Shown here one piece after another: positions 11,516 to 54,104 of a stretch of 64,000 nucleotides of DNA. This DNA comes from a virus. The DNA is taken from positions 26,869 through 90,868 of the IMG/VR virus record IMGVR_UViG_3300024348_000017; one strand, written 5' to 3'. The first letter of the stretch is position 1. Each line of letters starts with the position of its first letter. Under the pieces are notes generated by a model that was not told the DNA's origin, ran no database searches, and saw only the letters and a list, made by a program, of their open reading frames with translations. The translations under genes and the position numbers were made by a program.

Positions 11516-11545
11516 GCATGAATATACGACTATTGTTCTGCCACC
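11516..11545 (-). promoter_or_regulatory. Promoter-like motif
   Basis: The minus strand reads GGTGGCAGAACAATAG, then TCGTATATTCATG, with GGCA 16 bases before TATATTCA. It stands 20-50 bases upstream of the start at 11496 and overlaps the end of the SpeD-like gene. Confidence 0.6.
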
Positions 11546-11931
11546 CACTTACCACTATCAATCAATTTAAATTCATCACTATTTCTATCTATGAATTGAT
11601 ACGTTGCTGATTGTAAATCAAAATGTTCATTGATATGATTTAATACTTGCTCAGGTGTAAAATCGGAGCAGCTGTATAAATCGAATTGAAACATTGATGG
11701 ATGTATTGCATCCCAAACATGTATTGAGGCGTGGGATGTAGCTAGTGTTACTGTACCTGTTATTCCCTCATTTCCAAGTTCATTAACATATACTGAGGTA
11801 GGTCCTGCTACAACTACCATTCCGACTTTATTTACTAATTCTCTAAACCATTGGTTTAGTATTTCTTCTGACTTTGGTGGGTTAATAATATAACCCTTTA
11901 CTAGTAGGTGGATGTGATTCGGTACGAACAT
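11530..11931 (-). CDS. S-adenosylmethionine decarboxylase-like protein
   Basis: 133 residues, the size of short bacterial SpeD proenzymes. The diagnostic region TVTLATSHASIHVWD followed by FDLYSCSDF matches the SpeD pattern (SHxSIHxW, then DxFxC). In SpeD the serine before His becomes the pyruvoyl cofactor by self-cleavage. Here the residue before that Ser is Thr instead of the usual Glu, so self-cleavage or activity may differ. SpeD makes decarboxylated S-adenosylmethionine for spermidine synthesis; polyamines could help charge neutralisation of packaged DNA (inference). It overlaps the nuclease gene's stop by one base. Confidence 0.7.
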   Translation of the reverse strand: MFVPNHIHLLVKGYIINPPKSEEILNQWFRELVNKVGMVVVAGPTSVYVNELGNEGITGTVTLATSHASIHVWDAIHPSMFQFDLYSCSDFTPEQVLNHINEHFDLQSATYQFIDRNSDEFKLIDSGKWVAEQ

Positions 11932-12560
11932 TACTTAAACTTAAATCCTGTTAATTTTTCAACATCAGTAACACTAACCTTATTATTGGTGATACCGTCT
12001 GCTTTAGTTGTATTGTTATCAAATATAAATGCCATGTATTCTTTTGTCTTCTTAGTATAAACTACTTTCCAACATTGGGTTGGTACTGATGTAGTGCCTA
12101 TTTTATTTGCTACGCCTATTGACCCAGCCCAAACATGCACTGAATCCTCTTTAAGTGCTGTTTCACGAGATAACATTTCCAATGTTTTCCAATCCCCACG
12201 ATTTAAAGCAGGGTATTGAGCAGTCATATTACTGAAATAAAATGATTCGTCGTTTGCTACTTGATCGCATGAAGCGTCAGCGGCTGGAAAATTATGTCCA
12301 CGATCGAAACCAGCGCCTGTATAGTCTGATTGTAAATTTGTTTCAGTTGGTAATTTAGGATCAACAATAAATTTATCACCACGTTTTGCCTTAACAGGAC
12401 ACGTTAGTGATGCTTTTGTAATCCACCATTCAACTTTAACTGGGTAGTGTTTTGATTTGCTGTAATGCGTTGTGTACGCTTTGTGTGTTAGTATAACTAC
12501 ATCTTGAGCTGTAACTGTAAAACTAACTAATAGTAATAAGGCTAATAGGCATTGTTTCAT
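11931..12560 (-). CDS. Secreted DNA/RNA non-specific endonuclease
   Basis: 209 residues. An N-terminal signal peptide (KQCLLALLLLVSFTVTAQD, cleavage near AQ-D) precedes a beta-beta-alpha-Me nuclease domain with the DRGHNFPAAD signature at about residue 86-95 and the downstream Asn (YFSNMTAQYPALNRGDW) that binds the catalytic metal. This is the Serratia-nuclease family. The protein should be exported and degrade nucleic acid in the periplasm or outside. Possible roles are scavenging, blocking incoming phage DNA, or destroying extracellular DNA. It starts 12 bases after the gene at 12573-12776. Confidence 0.88.
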   Translation of the reverse strand: MKQCLLALLLLVSFTVTAQDVVILTHKAYTTHYSKSKHYPVKVEWWITKASLTCPVKAKRGDKFIVDPKLPTETNLQSDYTGAGFDRGHNFPAADASCDQVANDESFYFSNMTAQYPALNRGDWKTLEMLSRETALKEDSVHVWAGSIGVANKIGTTSVPTQCWKVVYTKKTKEYMAFIFDNNTTKADGITNNKVSVTDVEKLTGFKFK

Positions 12561-16557: not shown

Positions 16558-16581
16558 AACATGAATTTAAAACAGAAATTT

Positions 16582-16604
16582 GGCCCTACCAAACAGGTAG
16601 AGCC
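16582..16604 (-). terminator. Intergenic hairpin, probable terminator
   Basis: GGCTCTACC pairs with GGTAGGGCC (one G-U pair) around a five-base loop, eight bases after the lipoprotein gene's stop. A short T/A-rich tract follows. Confidence 0.65.
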
Positions 16605-16612
16605 ATAATCAC

Positions 16613-16774
16613 TTACTTAGTTACAGTTGTATCAACTACTGCTGTAGTTGTATCAGATGTTACTACTGTTGAATCTACTGCTACGGCAGTTGAATCTGTT
16701 GTTGATACTTCAGTTGAAGCACCACCACATGCTACCAATGTAGCGATTGCGAAAATTGCAATTACTTTTCTCAT
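16613..16774 (-). CDS. Small lipoprotein
   Basis: 53 residues. The lipobox ATLVAC-GG gives a mature protein of about 38 residues with lipid-modified Cys and a low-complexity Thr/Ser/Val/Asp tail (TTDSTAVAVDSTVVTSDTT). It is the first of a run of exported proteins. Small lipoproteins in phages can act in superinfection exclusion, but that is inference. It is followed by a hairpin. Confidence 0.75.
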   Translation of the reverse strand: MRKVIAIFAIATLVACGGASTEVSTTDSTAVAVDSTVVTSDTTTAVVDTTVTK

Positions 16775-16798
16775 AGTGTAATTTTTGTTTTATTATAA

Positions 16799-16828
16799 TT
16801 AAATATACAACCGAATTTTGCCCAAACC
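16799..16828 (-). promoter_or_regulatory. Recurrent promoter motif before the lipoprotein gene
   Basis: The minus strand reads TTTGGGCAAAATTCG, then GTTGTATATTTAATT; GGCA lies 15 bases before TATATTTA and TTTG directly precedes it. It starts right after the stop of the barrel gene at 16833. Confidence 0.65.
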
Positions 16829-16832
16829 AAAT

Positions 16833-18242
16833 TTATAATTGAAGTCTTGAACCAATCATAAAGAAACTAAGTATGGGTGTACCGGGCACGGTTGATATGC
16901 TGGCTTTGTAATCGATGTTAAATCCAAATCTTTTACTCAATTTAAAACTATATCCTGTGCCTACCAAACCCATTACATTATAGTTCCAAGAGCTTCCCGA
17001 TTTGCTGTTGTAAGCGTAGGGCGAGGCCATCAGGAAGACTCCTGGAGATAAGGTTGATTTTAGACTTATTTGGTATGGTTTAGTCCAGAATGCTGTTGTT
17101 GACGACATCATTGAATATGAGTAACCATCTACTTCTTTTAATTTAATGTTAATAACTGATAAGTTGTAACCATACGTACCTAATTTTGGATGTGGTATAA
17201 TATGAGTATAACCACCGAAAGTCATATGGGTACCTGCAACGTAAGCGACGGTATATGAGTAAGCATCTATTGATTTGAGTGCTCCGTTCTTAAAATTCAT
17301 ATCGCTTTTATTCGCAGATAAAGCGAATGATTTTAAATCAGCCCATATCATACTCGATACGCCCCAACTCGATTCACCTGTAGCGGATGCTTGAGACATA
17401 CTCAATGATATGACTGGTGTGAACCCACCTGTAGCGTTTTGACCTACTGTTAAGTCAGAACCTATCATTATGGGATTCATTACTGCTTTTTTCTTTTCTT
17501 CCTTTTTATCTGATTTCTTTTCTTCTTTCTTTTCCTCTTTTTTCTCTTCTGATTTACTTTCTTCTTTCTTTTCTTCTTTAGTTTCTGATTTACTTTCTTC
17601 CTTTGATTCGGTTTTTGATTCGCTCTTACTTTCGGTTTTGGTTTCGGTTTTGGTTTCGCTGCTTGAACTGCTTCCTCCGCTGCTGCTCTCCGAGCTTGAG
17701 CCTGATGATGAGGAAGATCCAGATGAAGATGAAGATTGGGATGAAGATGATGATGATTGGGAAGATGATGACTGGGATGATGTACCACTCGATGCTGCGG
17801 CTCCTGAACCTGCTGAAGACGCTCCTGCTGAAGCGGCTCCGCTTGCTGCTCCTGAAGCCGCTCCTGAAGCGGCTCCACTTGCTGCACTTGATGCTGCTGA
17901 TGAAGCTGCGGATGCTGCTGCTGAGGCTGCTGCTTGTGATACTGCCTGAGTCACCGTCTGTGTTACCACGGGGGTTGATACGGGACATGCTAATGTATTG
18001 TAGGATGCATACGTTGCTTGAAGCCAAGCTTGTAATTCTCCATTTGTTACTTGCGCTGATGTAAATGTTTTGATTTGTCCATAGAAGGAAACGACAGCGT
18101 TTCCATTAACCATTGTAGTTGTAGCTACTTTAGTTTGACCAGTGCATTTGTCAATAAAGGTTTGAGTATAGACTTGTCCGTTCGCTGTTTTAGCGAATAA
18201 ACATATAACGATTAATATTAAACTTATTAACCATTTCTTCAT
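16833..18242 (-). CDS. Secreted outer-membrane barrel protein with low-complexity linker
   Basis: 469 residues. Signal peptide (KKWLISLILIVICLFAKTANG), then a Cys-containing N-terminal domain to about 95. A long low-complexity linker follows: Ala/Ser/Gly repeats (about 105-150), a Ser-only tract (about 150-195) and a Lys/Glu/Ser tract (about 198-253). The last 215 residues alternate like an outer-membrane beta-barrel and end FMIGSRLQL. This barrel part resembles the protein at 22191-23084 (GTYGYNLS against GTFGYSLI, KRFGFNIDY against KRFILNTNI, FMIGSRLQL against FMIGTNFQF). The linker could cross the periplasm or peptidoglycan. Host-surface role inferred; part of an exported-protein island. 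Confidence 0.75.
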   Translation of the reverse strand: MKKWLISLILIVICLFAKTANGQVYTQTFIDKCTGQTKVATTTMVNGNAVVSFYGQIKTFTSAQVTNGELQAWLQATYASYNTLACPVSTPVVTQTVTQAVSQAAASAAASAASSAASSAASGAASGAASGAASGAASAGASSAGSGAAASSGTSSQSSSSQSSSSSSQSSSSSGSSSSSGSSSESSSGGSSSSSETKTETKTESKSESKTESKEESKSETKEEKKEESKSEEKKEEKKEEKKSDKKEEKKKAVMNPIMIGSDLTVGQNATGGFTPVISLSMSQASATGESSWGVSSMIWADLKSFALSANKSDMNFKNGALKSIDAYSYTVAYVAGTHMTFGGYTHIIPHPKLGTYGYNLSVINIKLKEVDGYSYSMMSSTTAFWTKPYQISLKSTLSPGVFLMASPYAYNSKSGSSWNYNVMGLVGTGYSFKLSKRFGFNIDYKASISTVPGTPILSFFMIGSRLQL

Positions 18243-19066
18243 TACTTATTATTCAATCCAATTGAAATTTGAGAATACTTCCTAATTGGGTCAGTATCTA
18301 ATTTTAATGTGAACCATTTGAAATCTCTTATTAATCCGACTTTAAATGTAGTAAATGATGTGTTTGATTTTGGAAATGATATACCACCAATAGCATCTTT
18401 ACCTTGCCATCTAATAATTTCATTGCCAAATCCTACCATACCGTGTATTCCAATTTTACCAATTCGTTTACCTCCACCAACATATAAAGTTGATTCTTTT
18501 TTCCAATCGTTTTTACTAAGTGGGAAATCAACATTATTGATTTGACCATATGGATAATAGCTATTTTGGTCTATTGCATAAGTCATTACATAATCCATAA
18601 TGAAATATCCTTTCTTACCACCCACTACTCCCCAATAAGATATTTGTTTATTATTTGTATGTCCAAATCCAAAGGATGTATAAACTCGTTCTTTTCTAAC
18701 AGTATCTCTTCTACCACTTTCGTATATGTGAATTACACTTCTTTGTCTCCATCCTAAATCATCATACCAAATGTAAGGCATTGGTTGATACCATCCGTAG
18801 TTACCCCAATAATAACCAAACTGATTAGGGCCGTTCCAATTTTGAATACCACCCCTACCACGTGGTGGCAATGGTTGTGATTCTTGTGGTGGATTATTTC
18901 TCCAATTACTCACATTATTTTGTGGTAATGTAGGGGTTTGAACTCTTGACTGTGTTGCTTGAGACGTTTGTGCTGCTGGAGTACTTCCACCAGTTTGTCT
19001 CCAAGTTGATACTTGTGAAAAAGATATCATTGGAATAACCAACAATAAAACTAATAATTTTTTCAT
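18242..19066 (-). CDS. Exported protein, aromatic rich
   Basis: 274 residues. Signal peptide (KKLLVLLLVIPMISFSQ), a Gln/Thr/Pro-rich disordered stretch (about 25-85), a Trp/Tyr/Pro-rich section (FGYYWGNYGWYQPMPY) and a C-terminal beta-rich part (GKIGIHGMVGFGNEIIRW ... KYSQISIGLNNK) compatible with membrane strands. The stop and the next start overlap by one base. No family recognised; surface location inferred. Confidence 0.65.
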   Translation of the reverse strand: MKKLLVLLLVIPMISFSQVSTWRQTGGSTPAAQTSQATQSRVQTPTLPQNNVSNWRNNPPQESQPLPPRGRGGIQNWNGPNQFGYYWGNYGWYQPMPYIWYDDLGWRQRSVIHIYESGRRDTVRKERVYTSFGFGHTNNKQISYWGVVGGKKGYFIMDYVMTYAIDQNSYYPYGQINNVDFPLSKNDWKKESTLYVGGGKRIGKIGIHGMVGFGNEIIRWQGKDAIGGISFPKSNTSFTTFKVGLIRDFKWFTLKLDTDPIRKYSQISIGLNNK

Positions 19067-19069
19067 AGT

Positions 19070-19786
19070 TTAGTTTTTAAATACACCCTTCTTAATCATA
19101 CGAGGTAATATACGAGCACAAGCAATATCTAATGCTTTTTTAGTCGCAATACTAACTGTAGACTGATTAAATTTAACTGGGTCTATTGTTGCGTCTGATA
19201 ATATTGTTAATTCTCTTGTTGTTTTGGCTTCACCTAAACCCGATGCTGCTATAATTTCTCCTGTTTCAGCATCTGTAAAGCGTACTTGCAACCCTAAACG
19301 TGTAACCATTGTATTTTTAACTCCGTTTGATAAGTTTACTTCTTCATCATCTGAAACTGACCAATCGTATACTTCAATTTCAACGAAGTAATGAGCTAAT
19401 CTAATTTTACCTCTACCATCTAATTTATCTTGAGAAATCCCAGCGGCTGACGCTTGGAATTGTTTTACCATTCTATTTTTAATTTCTGTTTTATCTTCTG
19501 TAAACGTAAAGCGATTAAGATTTTCAAGATATTCAAGCGTGATGTTAGCAACGCCAAGGCCCACTTTCTTTTCCTTGAGTTCAGGATACGACTCATAAAG
19601 ATCATCTCCGATACCACATTTAAGAATTTGTATTGGTATCGTTGGTCCTTCATAATTTAAAAATTGACTAATGTCTATTTTGGTTTCGAATGACGCTTTG
19701 AACTGTTCTGTCTTCGTGCTTCCTATAGTTTGAGCACCCACATTTATGGTCAATAACAGACCTAATAATATTAATAAACTTTTCAT
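19070..19786 (-). CDS. CsgG-like exported protein
   Basis: 238 residues with a signal peptide (KSLLILLGLLLTINVGAQT) and no lipobox Cys. The body has VGLGVANITLEYLENLNRF, followed by a basic helix, then strands leading to TGEIIAASGLGEAKTTREL and a C-terminal helix (STVSIATKKALDIACARIL). This order is reminiscent of CsgG/FlgT-type proteins, which form curli-secretion pores. Canonical CsgG is a lipoprotein; here the lipid site is absent. The C-terminal FNQ-S-KK-D motif recurs in the protein at 26659-27312. Confidence 0.5.
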   Translation of the reverse strand: MKSLLILLGLLLTINVGAQTIGSTKTEQFKASFETKIDISQFLNYEGPTIPIQILKCGIGDDLYESYPELKEKKVGLGVANITLEYLENLNRFTFTEDKTEIKNRMVKQFQASAAGISQDKLDGRGKIRLAHYFVEIEVYDWSVSDDEEVNLSNGVKNTMVTRLGLQVRFTDAETGEIIAASGLGEAKTTRELTILSDATIDPVKFNQSTVSIATKKALDIACARILPRMIKKGVFKN

Positions 19787-19804
19787 ACATAAATTTAATT
19801 TAAA

Positions 19805-19826
19805 AAAGGGAACCGAAGTTCCCTTT
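19805..19826 (-). terminator. Rho-independent terminator
   Basis: On the minus strand AAAGGGAAC pairs with GTTCCCTTT around a TTCG tetraloop, followed by T-rich sequence. It begins eight bases after the stop of the two-helix membrane gene at 19834 and precedes the CsgG-like gene. Confidence 0.85.
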
Positions 19827-19833
19827 AGTTTTT

Positions 19834-20073
19834 TTAATCTTCTTTTTTCTTAGAGCTAAACTTATCGAATGTATCAGCACCCATCCCAATACCAGTAATA
19901 ATCATTACTGCATTTACTAATTCAGCTGATGGGGCGAAGTCTGCATGTGAAAATGAATTTAACATCATTGTAATACATAAGAACATTGCACCCACAAACG
20001 CTATAACTGGTTTTACTGAAATAGCGCCTCTTTCATCTTTAAATAAATCAATCACCCATTCTTTGAAATTCAT
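19834..20073 (-). CDS. Two-helix membrane protein, holin-like
   Basis: 79 residues. A cytoplasmic amphipathic N-terminus (NFKEWVIDLFKDERGA) is followed by two membrane helices (about 21-41, VIAFVGAMFLCITMML, and about 51-67, LVNAVMIITGIGMGA) and a Lys-rich tail (FDKFSSKKKED). Size, topology and basic tail fit a class II-type holin or another small phage membrane protein. No endolysin was recognised nearby. Confidence 0.55.
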   Translation of the reverse strand: MNFKEWVIDLFKDERGAISVKPVIAFVGAMFLCITMMLNSFSHADFAPSAELVNAVMIITGIGMGADTFDKFSSKKKED

Positions 20074-20094
20074 ACTTTTAATTTTTAATTGTTA

Positions 20095-20703
20095 CTAATG
20101 AGAGTCATCGTGGAAGTCTTTTAATAGACCGCAATTTTGACACTCTAATTCACCATCGTTATCGGCATCACCCCAAACATGTTTACATTGTCTGTGTTCG
20201 TGGTGTTCGAATTCTAATTTTTCCATCTCTTGCTCATGTTCTTGAGCATCTTTAGCTATATCTTGATCATGTTCTTGTTGATCTTTTTTCAACTCAAACT
20301 TTTGTTTGTTCTCAGTTACGGCTAAATCTCTTGCTGCTGCAGCACCTTGAACGAATGCATCTGGGATTAATGGAGTAAATGGTCTGTTACTTTCTTTTAT
20401 GTCATTAACACTACCTAATGCTACACCATCTTCCTCATCCATCTTTTGTACTAACATTTTATCCTTATCAGTGTCACTAAACCAATAGTCTATGATTTTA
20501 CCATAGCTACCAATAAAGGCACCTAATAACAATAATAATAATTCTTTCCACTCTCCTTCTATTGATGATTTACTTAATATAGCGAAGAACATTCCTCCTA
20601 TAATAAATAAAAATCCACCTAATACCATAGCGGTAATATACCATCTACGGCTCATCATTTTAATTAATAAATCTTTAAATCCTGTTGGAGTTTGATCTGC
20701 CAT
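20095..20703 (-). CDS. Membrane protein with coiled coil and zinc-ribbon tail
   Basis: 202 residues. Two membrane helices (about 18-40 and 48-65), a linker, then a Gln/Glu/Asp/His-rich coiled coil (KKDQQEHDQDIAKDAQEHEQ) and a C-terminal CKHVWGDADNDGELECQNCG, which has four potential zinc ligands and a DADNDG loop that could bind calcium. Family unknown. It overlaps the micro-ORF at 20675-20779. Confidence 0.6.
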   Translation of the reverse strand: MADQTPTGFKDLLIKMMSRRWYITAMVLGGFLFIIGGMFFAILSKSSIEGEWKELLLLLLGAFIGSYGKIIDYWFSDTDKDKMLVQKMDEEDGVALGSVNDIKESNRPFTPLIPDAFVQGAAAARDLAVTENKQKFELKKDQQEHDQDIAKDAQEHEQEMEKLEFEHHEHRQCKHVWGDADNDGELECQNCGLLKDFHDDSH

Positions 20704-20779
20704 TTTTATATGCTTTATACGATAATAAACTAATTAATATAATAAAGAACACTACTGTTCCTATCTTATATCCTACCAT
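20675..20779 (-). CDS. 34-residue nested membrane micro-protein
   Basis: ATG at 20777-20779 overlaps the stop of the preceding gene; stop TAA at 20675-20677 lies inside the next gene. The peptide MVGYKIGTVVFFIILISLLS is a single membrane helix, followed by KAYKNGRSNSNRI. Overlap at both ends and helix content fit a small phage membrane peptide, but length alone makes this tentative. Confidence 0.4.
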   Translation of the reverse strand: MVGYKIGTVVFFIILISLLSYKAYKNGRSNSNRI

Positions 20780-21078
20780 TGTGCTGGTTTTTCTTTAAAC
20801 TCATCACCGTCTTTTTTCTTAACTGGAGCTGCTGGTTTTGTTTCTGCTGTTTTTTCTTTAATGATTACGGTTTTACCACCTGCTGCTTGAGACTGTTGGT
20901 TGCTGTTAGTAATATTAATTACTGGGGCTGCTTGTTGTACTGGAGCTGCTTCATCACCACCACCTGTTAATTTATTTGTAATAAATCCACCTACACCTAG
21001 TGTAACTGTACTTACTAAACCGATGATAATGTTTTTAAATGATTTACCAGTTGATTCTTGTTCTACTTCTTCTGCCAT
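20773..21078 (-). CDS. Single-pass membrane protein
   Basis: 101 residues. An acidic N-terminus, then one hydrophobic helix (FKNIIIGLVSTVTLGVGG) near residue 15-35, then a Gln/Ala/Pro- and Lys-rich disordered tail. The function is unknown; it belongs to the membrane-protein island. A poly-T/A tract precedes the ATG. Confidence 0.6.
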   Translation of the reverse strand: MAEEVEQESTGKSFKNIIIGLVSTVTLGVGGFITNKLTGGGDEAAPVQQAAPVINITNSNQQSQAAGGKTVIIKEKTAETKPAAPVKKKDGDEFKEKPAQW

Positions 21079-21138
21079 TTTTATTTTTTTTTATATTTTT
21101 TTAATTTATTTTAAACTCAATAAAACTACCCAAACCAA

Positions 21139-21459
21139 TCACCAAATTGGGAGATTGACAAACCAATCACCAAATTTAGTTAAAAAACTACGATTATCAG
21201 TTTCATCATTTAAGTTTTGTTTACAAACATCACAACCACATTTTTCTCTTACCTGTTTCCAATTAATATCTGCTAAAACCTCATACCATATATGATTTTT
21301 ATCAGGGTGTTGATGAATGAATTTTATTGCTGCTGGTGTGAGTGCGTGTGTATCACATGCTGAACCAGGTCCGTCTCCACCAAATCCATAATATCTTACA
21401 TAATTTTCACCACAATCTGAGCAGTTATATACTATATCGTCTCCGTTTTTCTTTGCCAT
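21139..21459 (-). CDS. Zinc-finger-like phage protein
   Basis: 106 residues. An N-terminal CSDCGENYVRYYG knuckle and a later CGCDVCKQN pair provide four Cys for one zinc ribbon; between them is a His/Trp-rich helical stretch (HQHPDKNHIWYEVLADINWK). A zinc-binding regulator or adaptor is plausible. Lacks a signal peptide, unlike its neighbours. Confidence 0.65.
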   Translation of the reverse strand: MAKKNGDDIVYNCSDCGENYVRYYGFGGDGPGSACDTHALTPAAIKFIHQHPDKNHIWYEVLADINWKQVREKCGCDVCKQNLNDETDNRSFLTKFGDWFVNLPIW

Positions 21460-21470
21460 AATTTTTGCTT

Positions 21471-21851
21471 TTATATTTTGTTAAAATCTGTTATTCCTAA
21501 TTGATTACCATTAGCATCGAATAATCCTATTCTATATGCTGATGATGGTAATGCTGATGTATATACTTTTAAGATGTTGTCTCCAACAACTACGTTTACT
21601 GTTTCTTTTGATACTACTCTATTTGAAATATCAAATATTTTGATTGTAACTGATTGAGCTACATTACTTTTAACATTCATAGCAACCTCTGAGGTTACGA
21701 ATGGTGTTTGTAATTTAATACCTACCGCGCTAGCTATTTTTAATTCAGCATTAGCTGTAGGTGGTTGGGGTGTAGGTACGTCTACTTTTGTACATCCTGC
21801 AAATAGAATAATCGCAACCGCTATTGTACATAATTTCTTCATTGTATTCAT
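21471..21851 (-). CDS. Lipoprotein with T9SS-sorting-domain-like C-terminus
   Basis: 126 residues. A lipobox (IILFAGC-TK) gives a lipid-anchored mature protein; a Pro/Thr linker follows. The C-terminal 75 residues (IKIFDISNRVVSKETV, then LKVYTSALPSSAYRIG, ending GNQLGITDFNKI) read like the type A C-terminal sorting domain of Bacteroidota type IX secretion substrates (xxDxxGxxVxxxx, SxLPxGxYxxxxxDxxGxxxxxKxxK). It is a tandem paralogue of the next gene (shared VGxNxLKxYTSxLP). Presence of a lipobox with such a domain is unusual; direction and role remain open. Confidence 0.6.
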   Translation of the reverse strand: MNTMKKLCTIAVAIILFAGCTKVDVPTPQPPTANAELKIASAVGIKLQTPFVTSEVAMNVKSNVAQSVTIKIFDISNRVVSKETVNVVVGDNILKVYTSALPSSAYRIGLFDANGNQLGITDFNKI

Positions 21852-21852
21852 T

Positions 21853-22191
21853 TTAATTAATTTTAATGGTCGTTTTACCTATCTGAGTACGGGATTGGTC
21901 TTCCAATACTAGATATAAATATTTAACGGGTAGCGAACTAGTGTATATTTTCAACTTGTTTTGTCCTACTTTACCACTAATGCGCTCTCTTGTTATTACG
22001 TTTTGAGTTTGATCCAACATTGTTAAAGTATATGTACCTGCCGTCTTTAAATCGAAATAAATATCACCACCATTCACCACGGTTGATTCAGCAACACTGA
22101 ATATATCTGCTGTAATGGGTTTTGGTTCAGGTCTAACTTCTACTTTTCTACAGCTAGACAATAATAGCAATATGACTAGTAATTTTTTCAT
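21853..22191 (-). CDS. Tandem-paralogue lipoprotein
   Basis: 112 residues with lipobox LLLLSSC-RK and the same C-terminal domain as the preceding entry (VGQNKLKIYTSSLP, ending GKTTIKIN). The two lie head to tail with one base between them. It overlaps the barrel gene upstream by one base, indicating an operon. T9SS-like similarity is weaker here. Confidence 0.6.
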   Translation of the reverse strand: MKKLLVILLLLSSCRKVEVRPEPKPITADIFSVAESTVVNGGDIYFDLKTAGTYTLTMLDQTQNVITRERISGKVGQNKLKIYTSSLPVKYLYLVLEDQSRTQIGKTTIKIN

Positions 22192-23084
22192 TAAAATTGG
22201 AAATTTGTTCCTATCATAAATAGGATTGGGTTACTCTTTTTATATCCAACCGATTCACTTAATTTATCCCAAGTTGTGTTATATCTGATATTGGTATTTA
22301 ATATAAATCTTTTAGTTATTTTCCAATCAATAGATGTACCATAATATAAGTCTAAATTGAAATCATTTAAGTATCCTATATCTGATGCCGTACCATCTTT
22401 AAAATCTTTGTAGATATCACTCATAGCAAATACTTGTGGTGATATGTTTACCCTCTTTGTTTTGAATGTATATGTGTACATTGCCATACCTCTATAAGTT
22501 ATTTGAGATGATGATGGCATTATTGGATAAATTAAATCTACAAAATTACCATCTACATCTACTGTATATTTTCCTTCCCACTCACCTTGATATGTTCCCC
22601 AAAATGTTTTTGAGGCAATTAAACTATATCCAAATGTTCCAAACTTTTTAGTTCTAAATACATCTATAAATGATAGTGTAATATCTTTTTGGAAATTAAA
22701 ATCAGTTGAATAGAATGATTGTAATGTAGTTGTTCTTGTATCTGTATTTCTACTGAAGCCATATCCCACACCATAATAATTCCATATTGGGTTTATTGAT
22801 GATGCTAATGAGTGGGCCCATTTACCATTATTAGATGTTTTACTATATCCTAAATTTAAGGTGGTAGATACTTGCTTTCCAATTATACCTACTGAAAGGT
22901 TTGATGATGATAAAACATCTTTTGAAAAATCAATATAAGACTCCAATATACCTAAGTTATTCCAATCACTACTTTCTCCAAATAATTCTTTTGGTGTTAG
23001 TTGTAATGTATCAGGCTTTTGTATTTGTGCATTTGCTACAAATCCAATTAAAACTAACGATATGATTAATAATAATTTTTTCAT
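22191..23084 (-). CDS. Outer-membrane beta-barrel protein
   Basis: 297 residues. Signal peptide (KKLLLIISLVLIGFVANAQ) and many amphipathic strands rich in Tyr, Phe, Ser and Thr, ending in an aromatic residue (FMIGTNFQF), the usual BAM recognition feature. It aligns by eye with the C-terminal half of the protein at 16833-18242. The size suggests about ten to fourteen strands. Its stop and start overlap neighbours by one base, so it belongs to the island's operon. The function (pore, receptor mask or export channel) is unknown. Confidence 0.75.
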   Translation of the reverse strand: MKKLLLIISLVLIGFVANAQIQKPDTLQLTPKELFGESSDWNNLGILESYIDFSKDVLSSSNLSVGIIGKQVSTTLNLGYSKTSNNGKWAHSLASSINPIWNYYGVGYGFSRNTDTRTTTLQSFYSTDFNFQKDITLSFIDVFRTKKFGTFGYSLIASKTFWGTYQGEWEGKYTVDVDGNFVDLIYPIMPSSSQITYRGMAMYTYTFKTKRVNISPQVFAMSDIYKDFKDGTASDIGYLNDFNLDLYYGTSIDWKITKRFILNTNIRYNTTWDKLSESVGYKKSNPILFMIGTNFQF

Positions 23085-25000
23085 TATTTTACTTTAACTT
23101 TTAATGTTGTACCTGCTTTATTAACGGCATCAGTTGCACCTATTGAAATTAAACCCAATATATTATCAAGCTTAGTTGTTGATGTGAATGTTATTTTATA
23201 TTCAGTGGTGTTATCTAAGGTAGTATTACCATCACTTATTAATGAACCTAAATTAATATAAGCACCTTTATCAGTTGCATAGTTAGTAGGTGAACCTTTA
23301 GTAGTAAATTGTATTCCTTTAAACTTTAAGACTGAATTATCATAATTTAATTGGAATTGAGTTCCAACTACATTTTGTTGTAGTGGATCTAATGTAATAT
23401 AAGCATAAATACTATCACCAATCACTTCAGTCATTATTAAAGCATTAATTTCATTACTAATACTCATTCCCCTAACTGACATTGTTGTTAGATTATTTGA
23501 TTTAGGTGTTGTTGAATGAGATAAGTTTACATCACCTTTCCAAGCCATTGTTAAGTTTAATGTATCGGATGATTTACCTGTGTTTATATCAAATGAATAC
23601 CCACTACCCAATGGTGTTGTAAATGTAGTCCAATTAGATTTACCAATACTATCATATTTTGTTTGTGGTATAATTCTTAATGTTTTATTAAGATTAAATG
23701 TATCAACTAATGTTTTAGCGCCTGTTAAGTTTTGCAATAAAGCGAAACAATCAGCCTCATTAAAGTAACCATCACTATTTACATCAGCATTCTTATATTG
23801 AATACCATATCCAAATTCGTTTCCACTTTGGTTTCCAAATATACCACCATTTGCTAATTCCTTAAAAGCTAAATAAACGTCTGATACTGTTACAATACTA
23901 TTATATAAAGTTGTTAAATTATTTGTAGTAGTTGTAGTTATTGATTGTGTTTTGTATGTAGATAATTGTGAAAATGTAAATTCTGCTTGTAATCCATAAA
24001 ATCCATTTCCTGCTCTTATATTTGATGCGAAAGTAGAACCTGAAAAGTTAAATTGTGTGGGGGTATAAACATAAACTTCTGTCCAACCATTAGCATCGTA
24101 TGAATTAAATGTTACCGGCCCATCCCATAAATCAAATAATTGTAAATTACTGATTGATGATGGTGTAGATAATATACCATTTACTTCTCTACTATCAATA
24201 CCAATTCTATATCTTTGATTGGTTGCATCGTATTGATATATTACACACCACTCTACTCCACCACTAGTTGTTAATGCTTTAACTCCACTTGCTACTTTGG
24301 TACTATCTAATAATGTTGTTATATCAACTGAACCTGCTGAACTTAATGCTGAACCTATTGCAAATGTTGTTGCTGTTAGGTTGGTATTCAAATTAAAATT
24401 TGCTACTGCTTTTTTAGTAGGTGTATTATTAATATTTGTTACTTCTTCATTCCAATATGAGTATGTATTTGGTGCACTTGGTCTTGACCATCTCACAAAT
24501 AAAGCATCACCACCACCATATTCTTGATACCTTGTAACTATCTTATATCTTGTACCAGCAACCATATTTTTTGAACCATATTGATATCCACTAGCACCAT
24601 GCCCACCATAGTAAGTTGATATTATTGTTCCGTCTACTGATATATCGCTCGCATCATCTGAATTGATTCCAAATCTATAGGTTCCTGTTTGTGTTGGTAT
24701 AAACCAAAATTCAAATTTAATTGCATAGAAATCACCTCCCCAATGTGGGGTTTGAATTGAACCATCACACATAATATTAAGAGCAACTTCACCTGTATGT
24801 GTTATAGTTGTATTTGAGTTTGCCGTATTTAACATATTGTCAAATTCGGCAGCCGTATTTGCGTGGTATGGATATTGGGTTATACTCCCGTTTCCATTAT
24901 GTGTTTTGTAAGAGGTATAATTAACGTACCCCCAACCCGATTGAGCTAAAGATACGTTAGTTAATAGGAAAGCTAATAATATCGTAACGAATCTCTTCAT
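23084..25000 (-). CDS. Secreted PA14/dockerin/cohesin-like adhesin
   Basis: 638 residues. Signal peptide (RFVTILLAFLLTNVSLAQ); a PA14-like domain at about 30-190 (FWFIPTQTGTYRFGINSDDA, later AGTRYKIVTRYQEYGGGDAL), which in other proteins binds glycans; a beta-rich middle; a helix TVSDVYLAFKELANGG; a dockerin-type calcium loop ADVNSDGYFNEADCFAL at about 420; and a C-terminal cohesin-like sandwich (VGTQFQLNYDNSVLKFKGI). Its C-terminal half is paralogous to the next protein. Surface adhesion or assembly of a surface fibre is inferred. The overlapping starts and stops indicate one operon. Confidence 0.65.
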   Translation of the reverse strand: MKRFVTILLAFLLTNVSLAQSGWGYVNYTSYKTHNGNGSITQYPYHANTAAEFDNMLNTANSNTTITHTGEVALNIMCDGSIQTPHWGGDFYAIKFEFWFIPTQTGTYRFGINSDDASDISVDGTIISTYYGGHGASGYQYGSKNMVAGTRYKIVTRYQEYGGGDALFVRWSRPSAPNTYSYWNEEVTNINNTPTKKAVANFNLNTNLTATTFAIGSALSSAGSVDITTLLDSTKVASGVKALTTSGGVEWCVIYQYDATNQRYRIGIDSREVNGILSTPSSISNLQLFDLWDGPVTFNSYDANGWTEVYVYTPTQFNFSGSTFASNIRAGNGFYGLQAEFTFSQLSTYKTQSITTTTTNNLTTLYNSIVTVSDVYLAFKELANGGIFGNQSGNEFGYGIQYKNADVNSDGYFNEADCFALLQNLTGAKTLVDTFNLNKTLRIIPQTKYDSIGKSNWTTFTTPLGSGYSFDINTGKSSDTLNLTMAWKGDVNLSHSTTPKSNNLTTMSVRGMSISNEINALIMTEVIGDSIYAYITLDPLQQNVVGTQFQLNYDNSVLKFKGIQFTTKGSPTNYATDKGAYINLGSLISDGNTTLDNTTEYKITFTSTTKLDNILGLISIGATDAVNKAGTTLKVKVK

Positions 25001-26658
25001 TATTCAACTATTAATTCTATCTTTTTACCAGTAGCATCAACTGCATCTGCTAATACTGTATAGAATAAACCTGCAGTGTTACTTAGAGGTGATTTAGAAG
25101 TAAATATTAATTTATATGGAGTACCAACTTTAATTCTAGCTGTCTTTAATTGATCAATTGAACCAAATGTTAACCTACCATTATCATGTGTTGAGAAATT
25201 TGTAACTGTACTTCCAGCATCAAATATAACATCTGTTAATGTTAATTTAGTACTATCGTATTGCATGATTACTTCTAAACCAGCTAAATCAGCTTTAGTT
25301 AAGCTTGCTGATAATGTTACTTTATTATTTTCAACTGTAGATGTTAAGCTTAATGTTGCTTTTTCTAAAGCTTCAGTAGCGTAAGCCATACTGCTAAATG
25401 ATGCTGTTCTTATAGTTTCACCTGGGTTAATTGAATTATAATAGTTACCGCTTGATATTCTTGAAGCAATAGTATCAGGATGAGATGAGTGTGACCAATC
25501 TAAATCACCACCCCAAGCAAATACAGCGTCTACTGTTTGAATTGGAGTTGCAATTGTTACTTTATTTGTTTGTCCACCATCTAACCAAGTTTGATTTAAT
25601 AAACCACTATAGTATCTTACTGATGTGGATGTTGATTTAGGAACAGATGCTTTAGAAGTTACATCTATACCCATTACATGAGCAAATAAGTAGTAACCAT
25701 CACTTTCACCAAATGTGGAATTACTTAATGTTATTAAACCAATTCTTTTCTCTAATACAGGCCTAGTAAAATATGTTGAGGTACCAGTAATATCAGTTTG
25801 AGTATGTCCTAAAAATGCCTTATAAGCATCTGATACTGTTATAATATTATTCATCCAAGTTTTAGTCATTGCAGGTGCAATAAATACACCTAAACTATCT
25901 CCAACTTTAATCCCTGATGTGAATATTGCTTCACCACTAGCATCTAATGCTTTAGTTTGTATTGGTTGTTGAGTCCAATCAATACCACCACTACCATCAG
26001 TTTTTAATTTCATTAATTGAACTGAATGATCACCAATATTGTAATTTGAAGGAAATAATACTCTAACTTTAAATTGAGATGTATTACCACTTACACTCGA
26101 TAGTGATACTTTACCTGTTGTAGTTGTGATTGGAGCAATATAAGCTGATGTATCATCAATAGCATATGATAAGTCTAATTTATGAATGTCAGTATAATCA
26201 GCCAAATCTTTAATTACATATTTTTGTGTTGCTATAATTCCATCAACACTAGCATCAGTTCTTTGTACTGTTAATTGACCAATATTCCAATCTGAATTTG
26301 AAACATAAGACCAAGGTGTAGCTAAATATTGTGCGTATAAACTTGTTGCAACTATACTATTTGCTGTACTTGCTGTAAATTTATAAGATGACCAATTTGT
26401 ATAATATGTTTGCACTGCACTACCTTGTGACCAGGTTGTTGATACATAAGCTAAAGCTTTGTTATTAAATTGATATCTTAACCAATAATAACGTGGTTTA
26501 GTTGTACCCTTAGCTACAGTGTACTTAATTTGAATAGTATCACCCACCTTATAAGGTGCTGCTGTTACTACTGCTTGGTTTACTGTTAATTGTGCGTTGG
26601 CTGTTAATGACAGCATAGATACTGCTAGTATCCCTAAAATTGTTAATAGTTTTTTCAT
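25000..26658 (-). CDS. Secreted protein with cohesin-like C-terminal domain
   Basis: 552 residues. Signal peptide (KKLLTILGILAVSMLSLTANA) and all-beta character. The ITVSDAYKAFLGH helix and AWGGDLDWSHSSHP segment match the same positions of the neighbouring protein, and the C-terminal domain (GLEVIMQYDSTKLTLTDVIF) has a cohesin-like pattern. It lacks the PA14 part and the clear dockerin loop. The pair could interact through cohesin/dockerin-type contacts, or both could bind another partner (inference). Confidence 0.65.
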   Translation of the reverse strand: MKKLLTILGILAVSMLSLTANAQLTVNQAVVTAAPYKVGDTIQIKYTVAKGTTKPRYYWLRYQFNNKALAYVSTTWSQGSAVQTYYTNWSSYKFTASTANSIVATSLYAQYLATPWSYVSNSDWNIGQLTVQRTDASVDGIIATQKYVIKDLADYTDIHKLDLSYAIDDTSAYIAPITTTTGKVSLSSVSGNTSQFKVRVLFPSNYNIGDHSVQLMKLKTDGSGGIDWTQQPIQTKALDASGEAIFTSGIKVGDSLGVFIAPAMTKTWMNNIITVSDAYKAFLGHTQTDITGTSTYFTRPVLEKRIGLITLSNSTFGESDGYYLFAHVMGIDVTSKASVPKSTSTSVRYYSGLLNQTWLDGGQTNKVTIATPIQTVDAVFAWGGDLDWSHSSHPDTIASRISSGNYYNSINPGETIRTASFSSMAYATEALEKATLSLTSTVENNKVTLSASLTKADLAGLEVIMQYDSTKLTLTDVIFDAGSTVTNFSTHDNGRLTFGSIDQLKTARIKVGTPYKLIFTSKSPLSNTAGLFYTVLADAVDATGKKIELIVE

Positions 26659-27312
26659 TTATTTTTCTCCTAATAGTTTAGTGACTAATTTATCACAACC
26701 TTTCTTAATAGCGTTACTAAGACTTGTTTGATTGAATTTACCACCCTCATCTACTATAAGAGTCGACATAGAGATTTCAGATGATGATTCTTCAACTAAA
26801 ACCTCTTTTTCTTTGATACCATCTTTGTATAAAATACCTTTTAAACGAATTACAACTTCTTGTTCGTTTTTATGAAACACAGATACGTTCTTTTTTGTAG
26901 TTAGAACGTCTAGATAAACAATTTCAACACGTAATTTATTCTCAGCATCTGGGGATAAATCATATCCCTTTTCCTGAATATATTCTTCTAAAATATTTTT
27001 AACACCGAATTCTAAATTGCGGTTACCTGCTAATTTACCAATAACAACTTTATTAGTAACTTTCTCAACATAAATATGTTCAGATGCATTATACCAAATA
27101 TTACCTGGGCTATTTTTAAAAGTACCATCGAATCTCCATGAAAATTCATTGGCTAAATGTTGCATATATTCTTCTTTTCCAGAGAATTGAAGAACTACGA
27201 AGAAAATTTGTGTAATTAATGCAAGACCTATAAATAATCCTACACCTAATAAGAATAATTGAAATAATCGGTCGCGTAGACTGATGGCCAGACTGATAGC
27301 TTTTTGCTTCAT
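26659..27312 (-). CDS. Membrane-anchored exported protein related to the CsgG-like protein
   Basis: 217 residues. A basic N-terminus (KQKAISLAISLRDR) and one membrane helix (about 16-38, LFQLFLLGVGLFIGLALI) anchor a C-terminal soluble domain. The last 60 residues (TLIVDEGGKFNQTSLSNAIK, then KLVTKLLGEK) echo the end of the protein at 19070-19786. It heads the exported-protein operon and is preceded by a terminator and a TATATTC box. It could be an inner-membrane partner of the CsgG-like protein. Confidence 0.55.
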   Translation of the reverse strand: MKQKAISLAISLRDRLFQLFLLGVGLFIGLALITQIFFVVLQFSGKEEYMQHLANEFSWRFDGTFKNSPGNIWYNASEHIYVEKVTNKVVIGKLAGNRNLEFGVKNILEEYIQEKGYDLSPDAENKLRVEIVYLDVLTTKKNVSVFHKNEQEVVIRLKGILYKDGIKEKEVLVEESSSEISMSTLIVDEGGKFNQTSLSNAIKKGCDKLVTKLLGEK

Positions 27313-27352
27313 CTTTTAATTTTTAATGTGGTTCGAATATAAATATGCAAAA

Positions 27353-27377
27353 GAAAGCAACCATTTCTGGTTGCTTC
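27353..27377 (-). terminator. Rho-independent terminator after the tmRNA
   Basis: GAAGCAACC pairs with GGTTGCTTTC around a six-base loop, followed by TTTTGC. It lies about 50 bases downstream of the tmRNA 3' end and upstream of the exported-protein operon. Confidence 0.75.
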
Positions 27378-27429
27378 GTAAAAGGCCCACTCTGAGCGCC
27401 CTGATCGCGGGAAGGGGAATGGACTCTTG

Positions 27430-27800
27430 TGGAGATGACGAGAGTCGAACTCGTGTCTCAATAATGAACAATAATACCAACGTCTCACACGCTTAGCTCA
27501 CTGATTAACCCCAGTGCATGAGGTATAGGGCCACAAGTTTTTGGTCTTAGTGACATCCACCACCTAGTTTTAATCTAAACTAAGAAAATCTAGCTTGTAA
27601 CTTCTGTTCCTAGGATGTTACACCCGACGCTATTTAAGCCGCTAATGCGTACTCGTTCGCACCTACGAAAGACATCATATCTTCGAAGGTCATAGTAGAT
27701 AATTCTACAGTTATTGTTTCGCAAGGTTTTAAGGACTTATCTTACTTTGTCCGCGTGTGGTACTACCTTCAGATTACTGATCAAATACCGGTACATCCCC
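27430..27800 (-). ncRNA. ssrA: Transfer-messenger RNA (tmRNA)
   Basis: The 5' end GGGGATG pairs with 3' CATCTCC to form a tRNA-like acceptor, and a T-arm (ACGAG TTCGACT CTCGT) precedes the 3' strand. An internal tag frame at 27634-27660 reads ANEYALAA then TAA, close to the canonical ANDENYALAA tag, with TAGGT just before the first Ala codon where E. coli has TAGTC. Length is about 371 nt, normal for tmRNA. CCA is not encoded. tmRNA rescues stalled ribosomes and tags products for proteolysis; phage copies are uncommon. It overlaps the 3' end of the gene at 27774. Confidence 0.88.
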
Positions 27801-32003: not shown

Positions 32004-32546
32004 TTATTCAAGGATCTCATCTACTAAGCCATATCTCTGTGCTACTTTAACATCGAAATACCATTCAGCTTGTTTATCCCTGTGTGGTTTTAATATCTTA
32101 TCTGTGAACTTTGTTTTAGACATAAAGTAAGCATCACACACTTTATCAATACGCACACACTCAGCTAATTCTTGTTTATGAAATGCTACTTTACCTTCAA
32201 CTTCATAATTACCCTCGTGGTACATGAATGTAGCATATTTACTAGCCTGTCTAACATGGCCCGCCGAGAATACTACTAACCCCATTGACATTGCATGACC
32301 ATGACATATTGTGTGGATTGGAGTCTGCGAAGAATCAATTACATCAATTAAAGCCATCCCATTATATATCTCTCCTCCAGGTGAGTTGATAATGAGTTTT
32401 ATTGGGTCTACTATTTGCTTTTTAGCGTCCTCAGCATTAATCTCATATATATCCTGTATGATTTCGTTAACTGTTAGACCATCAATGTATCCTAATGTTA
32501 TAACTCGACTTAACGGGTCTAATTTGGAACGACGCTCTCTTGCCAT
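32004..32546 (-). CDS. clpP: ClpP-family serine protease
   Basis: 180 residues, close to the ClpP length. The nucleophile loop GHAMSMGL (Ser), the helix that follows, and MYHEG (His) match the S14 catalytic order; the third acid residue lies near KILKPHRDKQAEWYF. NSPGGEIYNGMALIDVI is the substrate-groove strand. Phage ClpP-like proteins often act in capsid maturation, but here no capsid gene is adjacent, so a role with host ClpX or in takeover cannot be excluded. The leader contains a TATATTTAT element 22 bases upstream. Confidence 0.85.
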   Translation of the reverse strand: MARERRSKLDPLSRVITLGYIDGLTVNEIIQDIYEINAEDAKKQIVDPIKLIINSPGGEIYNGMALIDVIDSSQTPIHTICHGHAMSMGLVVFSAGHVRQASKYATFMYHEGNYEVEGKVAFHKQELAECVRIDKVCDAYFMSKTKFTDKILKPHRDKQAEWYFDVKVAQRYGLVDEILE

Positions 32547-32582
32547 AAATTATAAATTTTCTCTTATAAATATAAGTCCAAA

Positions 32583-33365
32583 TTATTGCTTAAACAAAGG
32601 AGGGTAATTTGAATTTGTTTCGCCGTTTCTATACCCGTAAAAACCCCATTTATATTTAAAATACTCGTGGCATTCTCTTTCAATTAATCCCTTCTGATAC
32701 GTCACTTCTGGTTCTATTTTTCTAGTACCTACTGATACGAAATGGTAGAAGTGGGTATTATAAGTTCTCTTCATCTCCATTCCCGACATTTCACATTGCA
32801 TAAAGAACTCCCAATCAACTACCCAAGGACCAGGATATGTTTCATCCCAACCTCCAACTTGAAGATATTTAGTTTTATTCATGAATATAGGAAGAGTTGA
32901 ACCACAATTATCAGATTCTTTTCTATTAATTGTTGATGTATAATCCCAAAAACTAACAAGATCAAAATCCTCTACACTCCCAAGTGGATGAACTACAAAC
33001 TGCTTAAATATTCCTGGATTAGGTTCTATTTGATTTGGAGCCCAAACAATATTTGGGTCATATATTTCTTCTAACTTAGCGTCCCAATCTTTATCAAATA
33101 CGTTATCATCATTTGCAATTAATATTTTATCTGATGTTGCGTTATATACTCCAAAGTTAGTTGCTGTATTCAATCCTCTATTTTCAGGTAAATTAAGTAC
33201 ATCAATATGTTTAGAATATTTATCTAATACCTCTTTATTAATATCGTAAAAACCATCTACAACTACTATAATTTGATTTTTATGAGCAGCCCCATTGATT
33301 GCTGAATTTAGACATACGTCTAAAGCATGGGGTTCTTTATATGTTGGGATTATTACTGATATCAT
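32583..33365 (-). CDS. Glycosyltransferase family 2
   Basis: 260 residues. The GT-A fold is shown by MISVIIPTYKEPHALDVCLN, IIVVVDGF and the metal-binding region ILIANDDNVFDKDWD (an NDD in place of DxD). The acceptor half has GPWVVDWEFFMQCEMSG. The substrate is not predictable. It overlaps the epimerase gene by one base and ends the sugar cassette. Confidence 0.85.
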   Translation of the reverse strand: MISVIIPTYKEPHALDVCLNSAINGAAHKNQIIVVVDGFYDINKEVLDKYSKHIDVLNLPENRGLNTATNFGVYNATSDKILIANDDNVFDKDWDAKLEEIYDPNIVWAPNQIEPNPGIFKQFVVHPLGSVEDFDLVSFWDYTSTINRKESDNCGSTLPIFMNKTKYLQVGGWDETYPGPWVVDWEFFMQCEMSGMEMKRTYNTHFYHFVSVGTRKIEPEVTYQKGLIERECHEYFKYKWGFYGYRNGETNSNYPPLFKQ

Positions 33366-34240
33366 TATTTATTATTTAAAATCATTTCAATTCTTTCTTC
33401 TAATGTATATTTCGGCTTGTAAATTGAATTAAATAAAGATGGATCACAAACTCTATACGATACACCTATTGGTTTTCCTATTAAGTGTTTTATTCCATTA
33501 GTAGGAGTATGACCACTTATTTCAAACATTGTTTTTGCTAAATCGTTAAATGAAGTTGCAATACCACTTCCTAAATTTAGTGCATCAACTTCAACATCAT
33601 TATCAACTACAGTCATAACCGCTTCAACTATATCATCCATATGAATGAAGTCTCTAACTTGAGTACCATCTCCCCAAATTTCAAATTCATCAACTTTACG
33701 ATTAATTCTATCTATAAAGGAAGGGAATGGATAAGTTAAATCTTGGTCGATACCATATCCACTAAACGGTCTAAATACATAGACTTTAGTTCCACTTTGT
33801 CTTACAAATTTAGCTAAATATTCTCCTGTTAACTTAGACCACCCATAAGTGTAGTCAGGTAATCTTATATCATCTAAATTAATATCACTTTCTTTTAACT
33901 GATATTTTAATTCAGGTAATTGTAAGTGAACTGGGTAAGCAGCGCTACTACTAAAGTATACTACTCGTTTTTGTTTTGTCTTAATTACCCAATTAAAGAA
34001 CTCAGAATCAATTGATAGATCAGTTGCTACGGATAATGGTTCGTTTTCAATAGTTTCTCTCCCACCAACAATAGCAGCTAAATGAATAACTAAATCAAAT
34101 ACTTGATTTGACTGTTTGAAATAATCTCTACAATCATTTCCTTCTTTTAAATCTATTCCTAAAATTTCATGTTTACCATTGAAATATTTTAAAAATGATC
34201 TACCAACAAAACCTAAATGACCTGTTATTAATATTTTCAT
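33365..34240 (-). CDS. NAD-dependent sugar epimerase/dehydratase
   Basis: 291 residues. Extended short-chain dehydrogenase: the dinucleotide motif GHLGFVGRSF at residues 7-16, IHLAAIVGG, the catalytic Ser in YFSSSAAYP and the YxxxK pair in YTYGWSKLTGEYL. It should act on a nucleotide-sugar such as GDP- or UDP-hexose. Starts within the preceding gene's stop. Supplies a sugar donor to the neighbouring glycosyltransferases (inference). Confidence 0.88.
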   Translation of the reverse strand: MKILITGHLGFVGRSFLKYFNGKHEILGIDLKEGNDCRDYFKQSNQVFDLVIHLAAIVGGRETIENEPLSVATDLSIDSEFFNWVIKTKQKRVVYFSSSAAYPVHLQLPELKYQLKESDINLDDIRLPDYTYGWSKLTGEYLAKFVRQSGTKVYVFRPFSGYGIDQDLTYPFPSFIDRINRKVDEFEIWGDGTQVRDFIHMDDIVEAVMTVVDNDVEVDALNLGSGIATSFNDLAKTMFEISGHTPTNGIKHLIGKPIGVSYRVCDPSLFNSIYKPKYTLEERIEMILNNK

Positions 34241-35106: not shown

Positions 35107-35690
35107 TATTTCCCCTTTGCAATAATATATTGAAAGTAATCTTTATGATGTAGTGTTACATCCCAACCTGAGGCAATAAACATTTCCTTATATGAATCAC
35201 CATTAAATACCCATAAATGAAATGGAGCATGATATGAAGGAGTTTCATAATCAGGGGATGAGGCAATTATATATTTAACTCCATTATCTAATAATCTTTT
35301 TATAAAAGCATCTGGGTCTACTAAATGTTCCAATACTTCTGTAGCAATTGCTATATCCGGAAATTCAATAGATTCATTTACAAAGTCTAAATATTTTATA
35401 TTTTCAGAGTTCCCTTTCTGTACAGCGTCTTCAATATTAGTAGGTTGTAAGTCATATCCCCAAATTTTATTAGGTAATTTACTTTCTATTTCTCTAATAA
35501 GACCTCCATTCCCACATCCAAAATCAGCAATAGTAGTCTCTGAATTATCTCCTACTATCTGAATCAGATATTCTAGGACTTGCATTAATCTTGGTCTATG
35601 ATTATCTTGATTTATATGATCTGCTAATTCTCTACTTTTATACCACTCAGCGTCATGTGAATGGGGTTGATCAAATGTTTTATATCTCAT
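35106..35690 (-). CDS. Class I SAM-dependent methyltransferase
   Basis: 194 residues. Motif I is IADFGCGNGGL, motif II is IWGYDLQPTN, and motif IV is PDIAIATEVLEHL. The EVLEHL and YIIASSPDYETPSYHAPF segments resemble small-molecule or sugar methyltransferases (ubiE/WbdD type). It sits inside the glycosyltransferase cassette, so O-methylation of a glycan is the likely role. Overlaps the next gene by 11 bases. Confidence 0.85.
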   Translation of the reverse strand: MRYKTFDQPHSHDAEWYKSRELADHINQDNHRPRLMQVLEYLIQIVGDNSETTIADFGCGNGGLIREIESKLPNKIWGYDLQPTNIEDAVQKGNSENIKYLDFVNESIEFPDIAIATEVLEHLVDPDAFIKRLLDNGVKYIIASSPDYETPSYHAPFHLWVFNGDSYKEMFIASGWDVTLHHKDYFQYIIAKGK

Positions 35691-36360: not shown

Positions 36361-36361
36361 T

Positions 36362-36980: not shown

Positions 36981-36985
36981 TATTT

Positions 36986-37291: not shown

Positions 37292-37292
37292 A

Positions 37293-38588: not shown

Positions 38589-38590
38589 AA

Positions 38591-53868: not shown

Positions 53869-53869
53869 G

Positions 53870-54025: not shown

Positions 54026-54061
54026 AGTTTATTTCCTCCATGTTTTAATTAATAAAATAAA

Positions 54062-54095: not shown

Positions 54096-54104
54096 GGTTT
54101 GGAA

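Follow-up and report, generated by a model that had tools for sequence, protein, structure and literature searches.

A recurring module of exported proteins, including lectin- or PA14-bearing putative adhesins and a predicted CsgG-fold protein, in large phages of Bacteroidota

The DNA analysed here, called the window throughout, is a 64-kb stretch of a 90,868-base IMG/VR virus record whose host is a freshwater Bacteroidota. Its gene content is that of a T4-related myophage, with a family B DNA polymerase, UvsX-like and DnaB-like proteins, a clamp loader and a ribonucleotide reductase, and its genes lie on the - strand almost throughout. The window also carries genes for GroEL (43710-45332), QueC/QueE-type proteins (52910-55295), an S-adenosylmethionine decarboxylase (11530-11931) and a glycosyltransferase cluster with a nucleotide-sugar epimerase (32004-40072), the last probably for glycosylation of DNA or of the surface, in a genome that also encodes the module described below. 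The remaining 27 kb of the record hold baseplate-type genes and a GH19 endolysin.

Fourteen co-directional ORFs, g1 to g14 (Table 1), form an island on the - strand from 27312 down to 16613, flanked by a tmRNA/tRNA group on one side and by ordinary small phage genes on the other. The initial annotation, made from the letters alone, had described a nearly unbroken co-directional run of mostly exported proteins in which many start codons overlap the previous stop, and this description held: all 14 ORFs were found on that strand in that place, start codons overlap or abut the preceding stop at five junctions (g2/g1, g3/g2, g4/g3, g5/g4 and g13/g12), and a terminator-like hairpin lies at each of the two proposed edges. 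By a simple hydropathy heuristic, a signal peptide, a lipobox or an N-terminal anchor was called in 10 of the 14 ORFs, and a transmembrane (TM) segment in each of g8, g9 and g10. The same heuristic flagged 10 of the other 94 window ORFs, the sole convincing secreted one being a nuclease at 11931-12560. Directly upstream of the island, at 27429-27800, the phage encodes a tmRNA (tag ANEYALAA) and five tRNAs; methylophage Melnitz likewise has both a tmRNA and a curli operon.

Table 1. Genes and signals of the island, listed in the direction of reading (positions in the window).
Feature	Position	Strand	Description	Basis
Hairpin	27354..27377	-	terminator-like, end of upstream tmRNA/tRNA unit	hairpin search
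Motif	27338..27346	-	promoter-like, ATATTTATA, 26-34 bp before g1	intergenic bias, relatives
g1	26659..27312	-	N-terminally anchored, YajG/Lipoprotein_16-like, predicted periplasmic	Pfam; 100% of 77 loci
g2	25000..26658	-	exported 552-aa putative adhesin subunit; dockerin-like and cohesin-like C-terminal part; paralogue of g3	hhalign
g3	23084..25000	-	exported putative adhesin; PA14 tip, dockerin-like and cohesin-like parts	Pfam
g4	22191..23084	-	exported 297-aa predicted outer-membrane beta-barrel, very conserved, 71% of loci	AlphaFold2, Foldseek
g5	21853..22191	-	lipoprotein, tandem paralogue of g6	lipobox Cys 90/91
g6	21471..21851	-	lipoprotein, C-x-K-x-D after Cys; sandwich domain weakly type-IX-sorting-like	lipobox 87/87
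g7	21139..21459	-	small Cys-rich cytoplasmic-type protein, optional (25% of loci)	
g8	20773..21078	-	small single-TM protein, 100% of loci, also immuto gp16	
g9	20095..20703	-	TM protein, 95% of loci	
g10	19834..20073	-	small TM protein, holin-like in size only	
Hairpin	19805..19826	-	terminator-like, between g10 and g11	
g11	19070..19786	-	exported predicted CsgG-fold protein, no lipobox	AlphaFold2, Foldseek
g12	18242..19066	-	exported aromatic-rich protein, optional (43% of loci)	
g13	16833..18242	-	exported; N-terminal domain, long Ser/Ala- and Lys/Glu-rich linker, strand-rich C-terminal part	sequence
g14	16613..16774	-	53-aa lipoprotein, optional, similar to immuto gp30	
Hairpin	16581..16605	-	terminator-like, closing the island	

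The hairpin that ends the upstream unit (GCAACC...GGTTGC) also precedes g1 in several relatives. When we searched the whole record for ATATTTAT, the coding strand had 24 sites and the opposite strand 4; of those 24, 17 are intergenic, in a genome that is only ~9% intergenic (p about 2e-13), and these lie mostly 12-34 bp ahead of a start codon, structural-gene starts included. Of 34 diverged regions upstream of g1, 19 contain the motif, where shuffling predicts 1.35. In Flavobacterium phage immuto, 16 of 20 TATTTATA sites are intergenic, and the genes that the motif precedes include those for terminase, portal and tail spike as well as gp13, which encodes the lectin. We infer, with no expression data, a late-type phage promoter ahead of the island. 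E. coli-type sigma-70 promoters were fewer than in shuffles. More generally, ATATTTATA seems to act as a promoter element of the phage, standing ahead of many genes on the coding strand (for example at 27338, 31989, 32565, 40289 and 59689); a copy inside g5 (21914) was rejected as a promoter, being explained instead by conserved KYLY codons.

Two scans of viral contigs yielded no fewer than 80 g2 relatives and 77 g4 loci, on contigs of 4-335 kb, and conservation was counted over 77 loci that extend far enough to either side. Considering that g1 and g2 were required in the locus set and that loci were fetched via g2 or g4, those percentages are biased, while the others are not; some of the loci are repeats of one contig. 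Eight core genes are each present in 95-100% of the 77 loci (g1, g2, g3, g8 and g11 in 100%, g5 and g6 in 99%, g9 in 95%), with g13 (78%), g4 (71%), g12 (43%) and g7 (25%) less constant. Core order and strand are kept in 73 of 76 loci, while the genes flanking the island in the window occur in only 3-19% of loci and the commonest upstream neighbour of the module in only 12 of 92. The core is thus kept together while its surroundings change, and the island is a real module, some 10 to 14 genes in size and found again in many large phages, its order and presence being far beyond chance. Export signals are also kept in relatives (g2 96/101, g3 79/83, g4 52/57, g11 81/84 and g12 33/34), and median identity to the window is higher for g4 (83%) and g11 (76%) than for the other core proteins. 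A bacterial origin was rejected: contigs of bacterial genomes gave two matches only, both phage-like contigs binned in Bacteroidota metagenome-assembled genomes (MAGs). No CsgG gene was found in those MAGs, and a plasmid search for island relatives gave no match.

The putative adhesins g2 and g3 are paralogous in their C-terminal dockerin-like/cohesin-like half (hhalign 100%, E 2.9e-67). What had been called a PA14/dockerin/cohesin-like protein and its partner stands firmly for PA14, which in g3 scores above the curated cut-off (E 1.1e-7, 32.2 bits vs 24), and less so for the rest: the cohesin match is weak and below cut-off in the window (2.4e-4), reaching 5e-9 in relatives, and the dockerin match is also weak (0.04), with a best score of 3.3e-4 in relatives and matches in 5 of 46. 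The nearest solved structure to the g3 PA14 domain is that of a large biofilm adhesin (6m8m, E 0.004-0.008), with a DD pair aligned. Among 46 relatives, the g3 position is mostly taken by Lectin_C (34/46), with LCCL in 9 and PA14 in 8, and the EPN and WND motifs of Ca2+-dependent sugar binding are both present in 60 of 67 distinct relative proteins. There was no sign of a tip made hypervariable by diversification: conservation of the lectin part is good, and tips differ by domain swap. The g3 gene is thus predicted to encode a secreted glycan-binding domain on a dockerin-like/cohesin-like stalk. The cellulosome shares cohesin-like and dockerin-like modules with the island; unlike in a cellulosome, the domain scores here are weak, there are no enzymes, and both modules sit on the same protein. 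The type IX sorting domain (TIGR04183/PF18962) is absent from the window g2 and g3, and since no sorting domain is recognisable, their route to the surface is unproven and both could stay periplasmic.

The protein g11 had been called CsgG-like, and this stands by fold only. An AlphaFold2 model built from 42 relatives (pLDDT 77) gave CsgG for all of its 17 best Foldseek matches (E 3.6e-7, probability 1.00), followed by PelC; the TM score to CsgG is low (0.48) and the rmsd large, indicating a match of topology. At the level of sequence there was no match to Pfam PF03783 at E<=1, no PDB sequence match, and an hhalign probability of 0.9% against E. coli CsgG. The pore-forming features were not found either: the signal peptide ends A/Q-type with no lipobox and hence no lipidated N-terminal Cys, and at the two pore-hairpin places the model has one acidic hairpin (133-172) and a single strand (178-194) with no return strand, so the CsgG pore hairpins are probably missing and a channel is not shown. 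For these reasons we describe g11 as a modelled CsgG-fold periplasmic protein without claiming a pore. PelC also has the CsgG fold without pore hairpins and serves polysaccharide export; unlike PelC, g11 has no Pel genes beside it in the island. As for g1, proposed as an anchored relative of g11, the anchor was recovered and the protein matches PF03923 (Lipoprotein_16) just under the cut-off (E 3.3e-5), but its kinship to g11 is weak (hhalign probability 45%), and we rejected homology between the two.

Most of the remaining proteins would populate the envelope. Of the two outer-membrane barrels that had been suggested, g4 is favoured by a strand-rich but weak model (pLDDT 59) whose top Foldseek matches are all outer-membrane barrels (best E 2e-3), while a barrel in the C-terminal part of g13 is possible only. 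The two tandem lipoproteins are borne out by their lipoboxes and by their paralogy (hhalign 99.9%). The small lipoprotein, g14, was recovered, and so was the aromatic exported protein, g12, which small lipoproteins replace in loci without it. Surface-exposed Bacteroidota lipoproteins bear a surface export signal (LES), C-x-K-(D/E)2, after the lipobox (PMC5080379). The window g6 has C-T-K-V-D at this place; its family has the strict motif in 30 of 87 members and a relaxed one (K at +3, acid at +4/+5) in 64 of 87. The sandwich domain of g6 weakly resembles a type IX C-terminal domain in one hhalign comparison (90%, E 1.7e-6), and its profile match is weak (E 0.05-0.07). The several small membrane proteins reduce to g8, g9 and g10, the last of which (or a 90-aa counterpart) is present in most loci; the small Cys-rich g7 is not a membrane protein.

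A search of 50,697 phage records matched the island to immuto only. Its gp12-gp19 (MW353175) represent a diverged module, with lectin, cohesin protein, small TM, CsgG-fold, linker/outer-membrane and YajG-like proteins in one stretch; the record labels them, without comment, as lectin, cohesin or, mostly, hypothetical proteins. Here gp17 (51% identical) corresponds to g11 and gp18 to g13, gp13 is a C-type lectin (3e-15), and gp15 combines a cohesin (6e-9) with a type IX sorting domain (9e-12); no clear counterparts of g4, g5 and g6 were found. A similar fusion of cohesin (5e-9) and sorting domain (2e-7; Pfam 2e-11) occurs in a 642-aa protein of L157, a 254-kb phage contig binned into a Bacteroidota MAG; the same contig (C291 of G002) encodes a second type IX sorting-domain protein at about 133 kb. 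Phage contigs are present in the MAG bins L156 and L157.

As the initial annotation had supposed, no single known phage module matches the whole island. Pelagiphages and methylophage Melnitz carry curli operons with true csgG/csgF and partly curlins, for which aggregation ('sibling capture'), uptake or lysis have been proposed (PMC7029224, PMC9599517, PMC9004378). Like these type VIII secretion operons, the island has a CsgG-fold exported protein and lies outside the virion genes; unlike them, it has no PF03783 match and no lipidated CsgG, its cargo is lectin/PA14 and cohesin-like adhesins, and its hosts are Bacteroidota. A Pfam scan of 12 of the 14 island proteins, all but g7 and g10, gave no match to CsgF, CsgE or the curlins CsgA/B, and the island is not a curli system. 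The second comparison is with the Cryophage type IX secretion cargo for the Bacteroidota surface, one with a PA14 domain, encoded by single variable genes and not by a conserved multi-gene envelope module (PMC7468147). The immuto and L157 versions resemble this cargo in bearing a type A sorting domain, which the window adhesins, unlike them, do not; by sequence, the latter are not recognisable type IX cargo. The island may work like both systems, though it belongs to neither by membership tests. A literature search for CsgG, lectin and Bacteroidetes phage found no description of such a block.

We lean, with only a little more belief than doubt, towards a late phage envelope module that displays a glycan-binding adhesin on the infected Bacteroidota cell, likely for sticking to cells or particles. 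This reading has a computed basis in the export signals, module conservation, lectin/PA14/cohesin domains, CsgG fold and promoter motif; how the parts assemble, the late timing, the route across the outer membrane and the purpose are inferred only. There would be a part for each envelope layer, with g8-g10 in the inner membrane, the anchored g1 and soluble g11 in the periplasm, the g4/g13 barrels and g5/g6/g14 lipoproteins in the outer membrane, and the adhesins g2 and g3 outside. The tip would be g3, with PA14 here and mostly a C-type lectin elsewhere, joined to g2 through the dockerin-like/cohesin-like modules, and the periplasmic, barrel and inner-membrane proteins, together with the possibly surface-exposed lipoproteins g5 and g6, would serve as a scaffold for export and anchoring. 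Some relatives may instead pass the adhesin to the host type IX secretion system by means of a C-terminal sorting domain. The infected cell could then adhere to kin, neighbours or polysaccharide particles before lysis, so that progeny would be freed beside new hosts; such adhesion between cells is inferred from domain types alone, without experiment.

The main rival is exclusion of competing phages, in which the displayed lectin/PA14 proteins, barrels and lipoproteins would mask or occupy surface glycans or receptors and incoming DNA would be destroyed by an exported nuclease. Typical exclusion factors include lipoproteins and surface proteins, phage glycosyltransferases are encoded elsewhere in the same genome, and g6 has a PHROG match to the Cor exclusion family that is weak and confined to the signal peptide. 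The window nuclease mentioned above is an exported DNA/RNA non-specific endonuclease (PF01223, 1.6e-42), and at 17 loci an exported Endonuclease_NS is encoded within or close to the module, often directly after g13 and in ten as part of the module; host or competitor DNA outside the cytoplasm could be its substrate. A class 3 lipase is found within the module at 21 loci (e.g. L113:13654-14397 and L039:18870-19613), accompanied by FeoA-like and PspC-like small proteins. Nuclease and lipase fit either adhesion or exclusion. Against exclusion, however, the promoter motif is of the kind that precedes structural (late) genes, while exclusion tends to pay off early; ten genes would be many for that role, and there was no PADLOC match. 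We consider this explanation unlikely, if still a live one.

The proteins could also be mere passengers of host secretion (type IX, lipoprotein export) with no phage apparatus, g11, g1 and the barrels having porin- or stress-like roles. The sorting domains of immuto gp15 and of the L157 642-aa protein, the C-x-K-(D/E) signals in g6 and the precedent of the Cryophage cargo (PMC7468147) are what such passengers would look like. However, g1, g8 and g11 are found in 77 of 77 loci, always with the adhesins, which argues for joint function, and the window lineage of g2 and g3 lacks the sorting domain; we think it rather unlikely that secretion by the host is all there is. A lysis or egress module, with the small TM proteins as holins and the outer-membrane parts opening the envelope, is improbable. 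The island does have three small TM proteins, some loci have spanin-like or lipase genes near the module, and a GH19 endolysin lies immediately upstream in 12 of 92 loci, but the endolysin is no commoner there than other neighbours, that of the window's genome lies about 28 kb from the island among the baseplate genes, and immuto has a separate chitinase and holin pair about 30 kb away, so a lysis cassette was rejected. Virion decoration or receptor-binding parts seem very unlikely, since Sec signal peptides and lipoboxes are kept in nearly all relatives and immuto tail fibres and spikes are encoded elsewhere, even if the promoter motif is common to structural genes and carbohydrate-binding domains are common on virions.

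The proposal that the island encodes a coordinated system that changes the host surface, and not virion parts, is therefore supported by its conservation as a unit, its export signals, its predicted components for every envelope layer and its lectin/PA14 adhesins, and by the position of the immuto module away from the tail-fibre and holin/chitinase genes. Beyond that proposal, the unit is widespread and probably late-expressed, its tip is swapped between lectin types, and relatives use type IX sorting. A bolder version of adhesin display, which we hold only tentatively and think doubtful, is an undescribed trans-envelope machine in which a CsgG-fold ring, barrels and inner-membrane proteins would export a self-assembling, cohesin/dockerin-jointed, lectin-tipped fibre late in infection, the cassette having spread through large Bacteroidota phages.

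If the late display of a glycan-binding adhesin is true, a large group of aquatic Bacteroidota phages would remodel the surface of infected cells with lectins, and what infected cells stick to would become a measurable part of phage ecology, with immuto and its cultured host, Flavobacterium sp. LMO8, making direct testing feasible. The question of why phages carry secretion-pore-like proteins, raised by the pelagiphage curli operons, would also gain a second and unrelated example in the island.
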